This document shows, piece by piece, positions 701-5,491 of a DNA stretch of 5,585 nt (positions are counted from its first letter, which is position 1; each line of letters begins with the position of its first letter). Below the pieces are notes generated by a model. The model saw nothing but the letters and a program-made list of their open reading frames with translations, was not told the DNA's origin and made no database searches. Source of the stretch: Candidatus Zhuqueibacterota bacterium (GTDB lineage Bacteria; SM23-31); contig JADFON010000155.1 of the NCBI GenBank assembly GCA_022562855.1, positions 1 to 5,585 on the forward strand. The letters run 5' to 3'. A program made the position numbers and the translations under genes.

Positions 701-1873
701 ATGGAATGGGTTACGCTAATAATTGGTATAATAATAGGTTTTGCTATCGCCTTTGCCTGGAACTGGAAACAAGGGAAATCAGCTAAGGAAATTGCCGTTG
801 AGCTGCACGAAACAAATAAACAAGCATTCCTCGAAGAGATAAAACTGAATTTTGGAAATCTTTCCCTCGAGGCAATGCAAAAATTTTTGAATTTAGCTGA
901 TTCAACGATAAAATCCGCACGCGAAAAAGACGCCGATGATCTCGACAAGAAAAAAAGCCTGATTGATCAACAGCTTAAAACTATGACTCTCGAACTGGAT
1001 AAAGTCGCAAAACTCATGAGAGAATTGGAAACAGACCGGGAAAACAAATTTGGCGAGTTGACAAACCAACTGAAATCTGCCGGAGAACAGACAGCAAAAT
1101 TGACGGTCATAACCGGAAAACTACGCGAGACTCTTGCGAGTGAACACGCCAGGGGACAATGGGGGGAAAGAATGGCTGAGGATGTGCTCAATATAATTGG
1201 GTTCGTAGAAAACATAAATTATCAAAAAGCAAAAACGATCGATGAATCCAACACTCGACCCGATTTTACGTTTTTTCTTCCACGTGGATATAAAGTGAAT
1301 ATGGACGTAAAGTTTCCTTTTGATAACTATGTCAAGTACTGCGAGACCGATTCGGAAATGGAAATGGAAAAATCACAATACAAAAAACGTTTTTTGAAAG
1401 ACGTTCGCGGGCATATAAAGGAAATTACCACAAGGAATTATATCAACCCCGAACAGAACACTGTTGATTATGTCCTTCTGTTTATACCAAACGAGCAAAT
1501 ATTCTCGTTTATTCATGAACAAGACAGCAATATCCTTGATGACGCATTAAAAATTCACGTGATTATCTGCTCTCCGATTACTCTCTTTGCGGTGCTTGCA
1601 ATCATACGGCAGGCAGTCGAAAATTTTGCCTATGAGCAAAGATCAAACGAAGTTGTAAATATCCTCAACGCTTTCAGGAAACAATGGAAAATGTTTGTTG
1701 AAAAACTCGAAAAACTGGGGAAACGAATAGGGGATGCGCAAAAAGACTATGACGAACTAATCGGCACACGCAAAAACCAACTGGACCGGCATCTCAATAA
1801 ACTTGACGCCATCAAAACACAGAGAGAATTACCACCGGGAACCGAAGAAGATATCGATGAATACAAGATGTAG
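701..1873 (+). CDS. rmuC: DNA recombination protein RmuC
   Basis: This 390-residue protein has the full RmuC layout. Residues 5-20 are a single N-terminal membrane helix, and 26-150 form a long charged coiled coil. The RmuC domain (about 150-345) shows RGQWGE (151-156), RPDFTFFLP (186-194), MDVKFPFDNY (201-210), YVLLFIPNE (257-265) and the ICSPITLFAVLAIIRQA block (289-305). PD at 187-188 and DxK at 202-204 fit the PD-(D/E)xK nuclease-like fold predicted for this family. In E. coli, loss of RmuC raises recombination at inverted repeats, so it is thought to limit DNA rearrangement; its biochemical activity is poorly defined. The C-terminus is again coiled coil (327-375) and ends at TAG. The ATG at 701 is chosen because the membrane helix begins immediately after it. 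The gene appears to be transcribed alone from the TAnnTTTG promoter and converges on pyrF. Confidence 0.95.
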   Translation: MEWVTLIIGIIIGFAIAFAWNWKQGKSAKEIAVELHETNKQAFLEEIKLNFGNLSLEAMQKFLNLADSTIKSAREKDADDLDKKKSLIDQQLKTMTLELDKVAKLMRELETDRENKFGELTNQLKSAGEQTAKLTVITGKLRETLASEHARGQWGERMAEDVLNIIGFVENINYQKAKTIDESNTRPDFTFFLPRGYKVNMDVKFPFDNYVKYCETDSEMEMEKSQYKKRFLKDVRGHIKEITTRNYINPEQNTVDYVLLFIPNEQIFSFIHEQDSNILDDALKIHVIICSPITLFAVLAIIRQAVENFAYEQRSNEVVNILNAFRKQWKMFVEKLEKLGKRIGDAQKDYDELIGTRKNQLDRHLNKLDAIKTQRELPPGTEEDIDEYKM

Positions 1874-2228: not shown

Positions 2229-3053
2229 TCACTCCATTTTATCGATAACGGCGTTTATGCTGTCACGCAGTTTCTTGCATTTTTTGCCTGCCGCCCTGGC
2301 GAAGTCTTCTCCGGATGATGCATATATTATTCCCCGGCTCGAATTTATAAAAGCAGGCGCTTTCTGTTTGCCGATTGCGTTACGGACAGTTTGCTCGAGG
2401 TCGCCCTGTTGTGCGCCGATACCCGGCAGCAGCAAAGGAATATCCGGGGCAATTTTCCTGATTTGAGCCAATTCGCGGGGGTGGGTTGCGCCGACAACCA
2501 TACCGAGGTTTTTCCGCTTGTTCCATTCCACTATTTTCCGCGCCGTCTCCATGAATAATAATCTTGCGTCGTCAAGAACAAGTTTTTGCAGGTCGTCTGA
2601 ACCGGGGTTCGATGTCAGGCATAGGATAAAAACTCCCCGCTCCTCATTTAGCATAAACGGTTCGATGCTGTCGTAACCCATATAAGGATTTACGGTCATG
2701 GATTCCGCTTTGAGAATATCAAATGCCGCCCGGGCATACAGTGCCGATGAATTTCCGATGTCTGCCCGTTTCGCATCGAGAATGGTGATTGTGTCATCCG
2801 GAATAATTTGAATTGTTCTTTTCAAAGCCCTGTAACCCTGTTCGCCGCATGCTTCGTAGAATGCCGAATTCAATTTATATGCCGAAGCATATTCCGAGGT
2901 TGCTTCAATCAGGGACTTGTTGAATGCATAGATTCTCTCCTCATCCGAACCGCTTATAGACTCCGGAATCAGTTTTATATCTGTGTCGAGTCCGACACAT
3001 ACAAAGCTCCGTTTCGAATCGATTACATTCTTCACCCGTTCGGTAAAATTCAT
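2229..3053 (-). CDS. pyrF: Orotidine 5'-phosphate decarboxylase (type 2)
   Basis: This cytoplasmic enzyme converts OMP to UMP, the last step of de novo pyrimidine synthesis. It has 274 residues, the length of the longer type 2 subfamily rather than the roughly 230-residue enterobacterial type. Visible landmarks are VGLDTD (20-25), AYKLNSAFYE (58-67) with the substrate lysine K60, the catalytic DAKRADIGNS (93-102) with D93, K95 and D98, TVNPYMGYDS (120-129), LLLPGIGAQQGD (207-218) and NSSRGIIYA (237-245) with the phosphate-binding arginine R240. All the key residues are present, so it should be active. The ATG at 3053 is supported by GAGG six bases upstream. It lies 8 bases after the stop of the membrane phosphatase gene and is probably co-transcribed and translationally coupled with it. 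No other pyrimidine gene is in the window, and no terminator hairpin is evident after its TGA. Confidence 0.97.
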   Translation of the reverse strand: MNFTERVKNVIDSKRSFVCVGLDTDIKLIPESISGSDEERIYAFNKSLIEATSEYASAYKLNSAFYEACGEQGYRALKRTIQIIPDDTITILDAKRADIGNSSALYARAAFDILKAESMTVNPYMGYDSIEPFMLNEERGVFILCLTSNPGSDDLQKLVLDDARLLFMETARKIVEWNKRKNLGMVVGATHPRELAQIRKIAPDIPLLLPGIGAQQGDLEQTVRNAIGKQKAPAFINSSRGIIYASSGEDFARAAGKKCKKLRDSINAVIDKME

Positions 3054-3059
3054 GGTTCG

Positions 3060-3063
3060 CCTC
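3060..3063 (-). promoter_or_regulatory. Ribosome binding site of pyrF overlapping the upstream stop codon
   Basis: On the minus strand GAGG (3063 to 3060) lies six bases before the pyrF ATG and shares its first two bases with the TGA stop of the phosphatase gene (3064 to 3062). It is the clearest Shine-Dalgarno in the window. The overlap suggests that ribosomes finishing the phosphatase re-initiate on pyrF. Confidence 0.6.
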
Positions 3064-3790
3064 AGGTATTTATCTTGTAGTCGTCTTTCATCTGCACAGC
3101 AATCGCCGTAATATCGTCATGCCTGCCCGATTTTCCTATAAACCTCAGCACGTTGTCTTTGATCTCCTCCAGGATAATATCGGGACTGTTTCCCGCAAAC
3201 CTGCTTAGTATATTTTTGAGCCTTTCTTCTCCGAATTCTTCACCATCAGCCCGCCCCGCTTCCGATATCCCATCGGTAAAAAACAGAAACAGATCGCCGG
3301 GTTCTAAGATACAAGTTGCTTCCTCGAGTAAATCATCGAACTTATCTCCGCTGTCTAAACCGATAGCCATCCCGGCTGGAATTTTTTGAAGAGTTTTCTT
3401 ATGGTTTTCGCACCATACAATAAGAGGCAGATGACCTGCCCTTGCATAGGTTAATATACCTGTCTTAAAATCAAATACTCCGTATATAACGCTTATAAAG
3501 ACTTTTCTCGGTGCATTTTCGTAAAAAATGCGGTTTAATTTACACAAAATTTCCCGCGGTGAGGTAACTTCCTTAGCAAGCGTTTTGATGATTCCTTTAA
3601 CCATCGTCATGTAAAAAGCCGCATGAACACCTTTGCCCGATACGTCTCCAATAATCAATCCCAGCCTTTCGTCATCGTAGGGAAAGAAATCATAGTAATC
3701 TCCCCCGATTTCCTGCGCAGGTTGACAGATTGCTTCGATTTGGACATAAGGGTAATCCGGCGTATCGGAAGGAAGAAATTTCATCTGCAC
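3062..3790 (-). CDS. SpoIIE/RsbU-type PP2C phosphatase domain (downstream half of a split gene)
   Basis: This half encodes a PP2C-family Ser/Thr phosphatase catalytic domain of the SpoIIE/RsbU class, which removes phosphate from anti-sigma-factor antagonists or similar phosphoproteins. The metal-binding motifs are intact: GGDYYDF (29-35), GDVSGKG (48-54), ARAGHLP (116-122), FTDGISEA (171-178) and GRHDDITAI (222-230), with aspartates D31, D49, D173, D225 and D226. The frame continues upstream past the GTG at 3790 through LEIARE to a TAG at 3809-3811. LEIAREVQ-x-x-FLP is the linker helix normally fused to an upstream sensor, so the native start is not here. If made separately, it would need re-initiation at GTG 3790 or ATG 3784, neither with a good Shine-Dalgarno, and it would be soluble and uncoupled from its membrane part. 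No RsbV/RsbW-type partner is in the window. Confidence 0.9.
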   Translation of the reverse strand: MQMKFLPSDTPDYPYVQIEAICQPAQEIGGDYYDFFPYDDERLGLIIGDVSGKGVHAAFYMTMVKGIIKTLAKEVTSPREILCKLNRIFYENAPRKVFISVIYGVFDFKTGILTYARAGHLPLIVWCENHKKTLQKIPAGMAIGLDSGDKFDDLLEEATCILEPGDLFLFFTDGISEAGRADGEEFGEERLKNILSRFAGNSPDIILEEIKDNVLRFIGKSGRHDDITAIAVQMKDDYKINT

Positions 3791-3808
3791 TTCGCGGGCT
3801 ATTTCAAG

Positions 3809-3811
3809 CTA
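3809..3811 (-). other. In-frame TAG interrupting the membrane-phosphatase gene
   Basis: On the minus strand the codons read RFEEKDRIMK, TAG, then LEIAREVQMKFLP with no frame shift. Phosphatases of this class typically have a sense codon here (such as the E in MKELEIAR), and GAG to TAG is one base change. The break sits in the helical linker between the last membrane segment and the catalytic domain. Confidence 0.9.
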
Positions 3812-5491
3812 CTTCATTATCCTGTCTTTTTCTTCAAACCGGAAGACATACTCCGGAATATATAAATCCACTTCCTTGATAGGAGTCCCTTTTTTTTCAG
3901 CATACAATCCAAAAAAATACACAGCTAAAATAACAACGTAAATAACGATCGCGTATCCGAACGAAAAAGGACTGAGTAATAACATCTGCTGCATGCTTAT
4001 CAGGAATAATCCTGCTGTAGTTGCCACAAAAATGGTAACTAAATCTTCCCGCACATAAAAAGCCGACCATAATAAACTAACAGGAAGAAAAGCCAATACG
4101 GCGACACCGGACGGTTTTATAAGGAGATTTGAATATCCTGCAAAGATCAGAAGACCCGCAACAACTACTATCAGTTTTCGGTCAGCGGTTATCTTTTTTC
4201 TGAGAATTGATCCCCAGACAAGCAAATGCAAAACAAAAAATGAACCGACGGACGATAAGTTCGTGGACACAAAATCGAGAAAAACACCCCCTAAGGACCC
4301 GTGGGCGCCGCTATCCCCAGGCAATTCGACCCACACTCCCGGCAGGTAAACGAGAAGCTGTTCAGCCAACAAATACAGCAACAGCCCTGCGCCGGCTAAC
4401 GAAAGACCCTTTATTACATACTCGCCAATTTCCTTTACATGCGGTTTTCCCACGAAAATGGTATCAAGACCCCGCAGCTTATCACGCCGGATATCGCGGG
4501 TAATTGATTCGCCTACGGCAAAAGCGATCGTTATCAATCCCCACATCAACAATCCTCCAAAGAATGACGCCAGAGCAATTACTAACCAATTTCTTTCTCC
4601 CGAAATTGTTATTAACCCGATGTTCACAGCGAATAAGATACCGGTTATTCCGCCTATCCACATGCCTTTTCTGTACTCGATCTCATCCCGTTTGAATTTC
4701 TTGACGAGGAATACAATCACCAAAATAACACCCGCAAAATACATTATAGAACGCATTACCCGGAAAAAAATATCGCTCACGAAAACAAATCCGGATTCAT
4801 CGCTTGTGCCCAAATCGATGTTTCTTCTGAAATCCGTTACTCTATTTGCGGAGACATTTACCGAGAACGACTCAGTATATAAGGCAGAAGTAAAAGAAAT
4901 TTGAGAAAATTCAAAAGAAAACGCTGAGAATCCGGACCTCTGGTCTTCACTGCTTTCTAACATCTGAAGGTCGGATGTATCCACGGATGCGTATTCGGCA
5001 ACAAATGATTTCGCTATCCTCTCCGCTCCAAGAATAGTCGTTTCCACTCCAGGCTGTGCCTGCAGGGTGAGCGTATCGCTCAATACAATTAAGTCTCCTC
5101 TTGGATTGAAATCGAGCAGAATCGCTTCAGCGGCTCCTTCGTCTTCACCCATTTTTAAATAACGGAGTGTCCAAAAATAATACGGCAGTCTTCTTGCTTC
5201 GCCGAACGGCAAACCTTCTTTTTGGACGAATTCAAGCATCTCTTCATCGATTCTCAAATCAAAGGTCAATGTATAATCTTCGGAATCATAACCTAAATCA
5301 GACAGCACTTTCCGGCTAAAAGGTACAACTTCCACATAAGGATCGCTGTCGTACATTTCTGAAATTATTTCGCTCGGCTTGTGAATAGTGACGTTCAGGA
5401 TAATGACCGCCGTGAATATCGACAAAAGAATCAAGTGTTTCGGATATGATTTTTTAGGACGCTTTAACATTGCTGTAATTCTTTGTTGCAT
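3809..5491 (-). CDS. Polytopic membrane sensor half of the split phosphatase gene
   Basis: This half has 560 residues. A short basic N-terminus (1-19) precedes a first membrane helix (20-36). Next comes a domain of about 195 residues (40-235), predicted to be outside the inner membrane and rich in beta-type sequence (YYFWTLRYLKMG at 104-115, ILLDFNPRGDLI at 124-135, FSVNVSANRVTDFRR at 209-223). About nine further membrane segments follow (approximately 243-264, 277-296, 302-326, 358-382, 404-429, 439-457, 461-479, 484-506, 511-530), and then a cytoplasmic linker ending at the TAG. GESITR (327-332) and FFVLH (418-422) recall the first two motifs of CPBP (ABI) membrane proteases, but the double glutamate is missing, so protease activity is not supported. 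It probably senses an envelope signal and controls the phosphatase. The ATG at 5491 is the first start after an in-frame TAA at 5500-5498; ATG 5470 is an alternative. No strong Shine-Dalgarno or clear TAnnTTTG promoter was found. Confidence 0.85.
   Translation of the reverse strand: MQQRITAMLKRPKKSYPKHLILLSIFTAVIILNVTIHKPSEIISEMYDSDPYVEVVPFSRKVLSDLGYDSEDYTLTFDLRIDEEMLEFVQKEGLPFGEARRLPYYFWTLRYLKMGEDEGAAEAILLDFNPRGDLIVLSDTLTLQAQPGVETTILGAERIAKSFVAEYASVDTSDLQMLESSEDQRSGFSAFSFEFSQISFTSALYTESFSVNVSANRVTDFRRNIDLGTSDESGFVFVSDIFFRVMRSIMYFAGVILVIVFLVKKFKRDEIEYRKGMWIGGITGILFAVNIGLITISGERNWLVIALASFFGGLLMWGLITIAFAVGESITRDIRRDKLRGLDTIFVGKPHVKEIGEYVIKGLSLAGAGLLLYLLAEQLLVYLPGVWVELPGDSGAHGSLGGVFLDFVSTNLSSVGSFFVLHLLVWGSILRKKITADRKLIVVVAGLLIFAGYSNLLIKPSGVAVLAFLPVSLLWSAFYVREDLVTIFVATTAGLFLISMQQMLLLSPFSFGYAIVIYVVILAVYFFGLYAEKKGTPIKEVDLYIPEYVFRFEEKDRIMK

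Follow-up and report, generated by a model that had tools for sequence, protein, structure and literature searches.

A single in-frame TAG interrupts a predicted RsbU-type sensor phosphatase gene in a draft genome of Candidatus Zhuqueibacterota

The stretch of DNA analyzed here (5,585 nucleotides, referred to as the window) carries on its minus strand a phosphatase frame that is interrupted by one in-frame TAG, at a site where relatives possess a sense codon and in a genome that uses TAG as an ordinary stop and has an intact RF1. With moderate confidence, we interpret the TAG as a recent nonsense allele that ends translation in a former RsbU-type sensor phosphatase gene. This reading and a consensus error in the fragmented draft are the two most likely states of the locus, the weights assigned to them being derived from general expectation and not from a measurement.

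Translation of the minus strand from ATG 5491 to TGA 3062 yielded a single frame of 808 sense codons, consisting of 560 residues, the TAG at codon 561 as sole break, a further 248 residues and TGA (Table 1). Both halves show this genome's coding signal, at 0.14 and 0.21 bits per codon; most other frames in the window score around 0 or lower on the same measure. As a SpoIIE-type frame of 248 codons (E 5e-47) begins directly after the TAG, chance can be excluded as the cause of the frame continuing. The start of pyrF lies 8 bases past the phosphatase stop.

Table 1. Features of the interrupted phosphatase locus and its neighbours in the window.
Feature	Position	Strand	Evidence
In-frame TAG, codon 561 of the phosphatase frame	3809..3811	-	translation; homologue alignment
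Upstream open frame, 560 aa: extracytoplasmic-type domain, several membrane helices, start of coupling helix	3809..5491	-	orthologue alignment; model helices 231-541
Downstream open frame, 248 codons, SpoIIE/RsbU-type PP2C phosphatase domain	3062..3808	-	PF07228 E 5.1e-47; motif aspartates
Coupling helix, residues 547-572, broken by TAG	3776..3853	-	AlphaFold2 model; conserved residues
GTG, first possible re-initiation codon, V568 of the full-length frame	3788..3790	-	homologue alignment; Shine-Dalgarno energy
pyrF (orotidine-5'-phosphate decarboxylase)	2229..3053	-	TIGR02127 E 2e-72
rmuC	701-1873	+	ends in TAG

The frame matched PF07228 (SpoIIE) with 160.7 bits against a curated cut-off of 25; the score for the SiaA phosphatase equivalog NF038263 was 36.3 bits and thus far below its cut-off of 700. 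In an alignment of 65 homologues, D598, D616 and D740 correspond to aspartate in all sequences, and D792 and D793 in 62, the remaining three having gaps. Judged by sequence, the full-length frame is a SpoIIE/RsbU-type PP2C phosphatase with its metal-binding motif aspartates kept, confirming the initial annotation that every catalytic aspartate is retained. The upstream 560 codons matched no Pfam family; a weak YcdB/YcdC-type match stayed below the cut-off and was slightly better in the orthologue. The membrane topology of this half is a prediction.

The phylum set comprised six genomes including that of the window, two of the others belonging to the same family and none to the same genus. The closest relative found is encoded in G002, a genome of another genus within the family, as an uninterrupted full-length orthologue in a frame of 831 codons with about 37-39% identity; the match (39% over query residues 56-801) crosses the stop without interruption, and the gene is followed by pyrF in the same order as in the window. 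Full-length relatives that are likewise uninterrupted across the stop were detected in G050 (29% identity, 804 codons) and G058 (31% identity, 828 codons). It had been proposed to look for a sense codon for Glu, Gln or Lys at codon 561 in orthologues, and all three full-length relatives proved to have Glu there (GAG, GAG and GAA in G002, G050 and G058, respectively). Among the 65 homologues the same column contains 33 Glu and 29 Asp besides one His, one Gln and one Gly, so that the residue is acidic in 62 of 65. Orthologues with a sense codon and a single continuous frame are what characterizes a nonsense-interrupted gene, and the original description of one in-frame TAG splitting an otherwise intact membrane-sensor phosphatase was borne out by the translation and by the relatives that span the stop. 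A profile search with the sensor half in 386 genomes yielded no other relative with a stop at this site. Neither the phylum set nor plasmids or viral contigs contained a further genome of this species or genus, and a search of named genome contigs for one returned only distant PP2C homologues; records very near the window are possibly absent from these collections. No 16S rRNA was recovered from the genome of the window. Matches to SpoIIE-type phosphatases were also found clustered on single contigs, with three on G000:C476, four on G002:C192 and six on G050:C174 (L003), which suggests local arrays of sensor phosphatases.

In an AlphaFold2 model of the read-through protein, which was built from a four-sequence alignment with a mean pLDDT of 66 and serves as a guide only, residue 561 is located inside a predicted helix (547-572) leading into the PP2C domain. 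The pLDDT is about 58-76 across this helix, and the PP2C part is modelled confidently. L562, A565, Q569 and P574 near the stop are conserved in the 65-homologue alignment. For the PP2C half, similarity was found to the RsbU domain of Rv1364c and to the phosphatase domains of RssB, SiaA and SpoIIE. In B. subtilis RsbU, the equivalent linker governs activity by dimerising the catalytic domains (PMC12143880). The predicted helix together with this role of the RsbU linker supports the earlier proposal that the stop falls in the linker coupling sensor to catalysis. Like the RsbU/RsbP-type PPM (PP2C) phosphatases represented by B. subtilis RsbU (PMC12143880), the window frame combines an N-terminal sensor, a helical linker and a C-terminal SpoIIE-type PP2C domain, the linker being the place of signal passage in both. 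In contrast to those enzymes, however, the window frame has a predicted membrane protein from another, undescribed family as its sensor and is interrupted within the linker. Once severed from the coupling helix, the catalytic domain would by analogy be expected to show weak activity instead of being switched on.

How the genome reads TAG was evaluated in a sample of 342 kb (39 contig stretches and the window), in which 50 of the 228 genes with an end stop (22%) terminate in TAG; rmuC in the window is one example of TAG as a terminator, as had been stated before. TAG is thus neither absent nor rare as terminator, and both RF1 and RF2 are intact. No CUA anticodon was found among 17 confirmed ordinary tRNAs and no PylS in this genome, which is about 80% complete; the suggested genome-wide check for amber-suppressor tRNAs or pyl genes returned none within this scope. 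A tRNA-Sec is present on G000:C435 with the anticodon UCA, and an ArsM-like gene (L161 2688-3557, minus strand, G000:C201) contains one in-frame TGA in the context DLWTG-U-IAGALLE, which aligns with Cys in the ArsM-like piece of the window; this gene probably encodes a selenoprotein. From the tRNA-Sec and the in-frame TGA, the organism probably makes selenoproteins via TGA, with TAG as a plain stop. Decoding of the TAG as a residue by an amber tRNA or by pyrrolysine or selenocysteine machinery might draw on this probable reading of TGA as selenocysteine, but the anticodon of the tRNA-Sec is UCA, and neither a SECIS-like fold nor any stable or stimulatory RNA structure (z 0.09) was found behind the TAG. 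Recoding was rejected on RF1, the use of TAG as terminator and, as far as the about 80% complete genome and its 17 confirmed ordinary tRNAs show, the tRNA anticodons and the lack of PylS. It is largely refuted by that use of TAG, and we consider its probability practically negligible, in line with the initial annotation, which had seen no support for it.

A base-call or assembly error, with the organism having a sense codon and making an ordinary full-length phosphatase, is quite possible, though we hold it for less probable than a true lesion. The draft is fragmented, with 2.5 Mb spread over 491 contigs and a completeness of 79.6%, the window makes up an entire contig (C161) of 5.6 kb, and the TAG is a lone lesion in an otherwise intact gene with full-length orthologues. 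At positions 123-476 on the minus strand, the window moreover contains the C-terminal part of an ArsM-like (arsenite methyltransferase) gene, covering model positions 169-269 of 272; its front is missing, and the sequence upstream toward rmuC is non-coding in that frame. The piece could be the remnant of a broken gene or mark an assembly junction near 477-490. However, a search for further conserved genes split by a stop, likewise called for earlier, recognised none among about 250 sampled genes, and internal stops were absent from 28 ABC-ATPase and 27 HATPase matches, which argues that in-frame-stop errors are uncommon in this assembly. Screening the 342-kb sample for adjacent same-frame pieces that both carry coding signal yielded 17 pairs including the window, a procedure that detects in-frame stops and lets frameshift-broken genes escape. 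Eight of the 16 other pairs were inspected; seven of them combine pieces from clearly distinct families, and the eighth (L092) has a second piece that matches nothing in Pfam.

The fully intact catalytic half would also be compatible with a functional leaky stop, low-level readthrough giving a little full-length enzyme, or with re-initiation at GTG 3790 or ATG 3784 to give a free catalytic domain. We regard such a function as improbable, as the stop occurs in no relative and is not followed by RNA structure. The GTG is situated only 19 bases past the stop, but it lacks a Shine-Dalgarno sequence (+0.4 kcal/mol) and corresponds to an internal Ile or Val codon in 63 of 65 homologues; re-initiation there, one of the explanations listed at the outset, is consequently unsupported by Shine-Dalgarno strength. 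ATG 3784 has an average Shine-Dalgarno sequence (-2.9 kcal/mol; median of the sampled starts, -3.1). In this genome such energies mark starts only weakly, values at or below -4 kcal/mol being found for 37% of starts versus 20% of random places, and re-initiation may thus still take place. It is less probable again that the TAG is a kept regulatory stop, which would produce either mostly sensor stub and a little full-length phosphatase by leakiness or a free catalytic domain by re-initiation. If the stop separated two real genes, one for a membrane sensor and one for an independent phosphatase, a parallel would exist in G098 and G365: two distant sensor-half relatives there are proteins of about 560 codons, and the next gene of each is another sensor-like copy. 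Nevertheless, all close relatives are single full-length genes, the stop interrupts a predicted helix midway, and no supported start precedes the conserved residues of the downstream frame, making this arrangement highly improbable. The loci in G098 and G365 (L136 1-3168 and L137 1408-4566) carry tandem sensor-half-related proteins that are not fused to a phosphatase; this sensor family may occur independently and may serve other outputs.

The nonsense allele is favoured by uninterrupted orthologues with Glu at the site, that of G002 being also located beside pyrF. The ancestral state would have been one RsbU-type sensor phosphatase gene, in whose product a coupling helix joined the membrane sensor at the N-terminus to the PP2C domain at the C-terminus. 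Mutation of the conserved acidic codon of this helix to a nonsense codon would then cause RF1 to stop translation, leaving at most a 560-residue sensor stub without catalytic domain, and the pathway would lose the output of this phosphatase. We infer a recent lesion that exists in the organism and is no product of the assembly, together with a loss of the output. The TAG is the sole lesion of a frame without any other stop or other decay. In a drifting gene, about 3.9% of all point changes would create a further stop, and the frame without a second stop would therefore date the lesion to less than about 76 point changes (3% divergence) at 95%. The same lack of decay besides the stop speaks against a nonsense allele, as does the polarity on a needed gene that would be expected if a real stop left about 750 untranslated bases ahead of pyrF; pyrF has a good Shine-Dalgarno sequence of its own. 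The locus resembles the single-stop pseudogenes or nonsense alleles of bacterial draft genomes in having one in-frame stop, halves that are otherwise intact and relatives with a sense codon, and no feature distinguishing it from these was found. A literature search for pseudogenes and premature stops among metagenome-assembled genomes returned nothing. Overall, the range of explanations originally offered (nonsense mutation, assembly error, readthrough and re-initiation, with recoding unsupported) agrees with the tests.

The locus is properly annotated as an interrupted RsbU-type phosphatase and neither as two genes nor as evidence for amber recoding, and its significance beyond this genome is little. 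If the stop were conserved in the species, however, it would represent a natural uncoupling of a sensor from its phosphatase, placed in the helix that activates this enzyme class.
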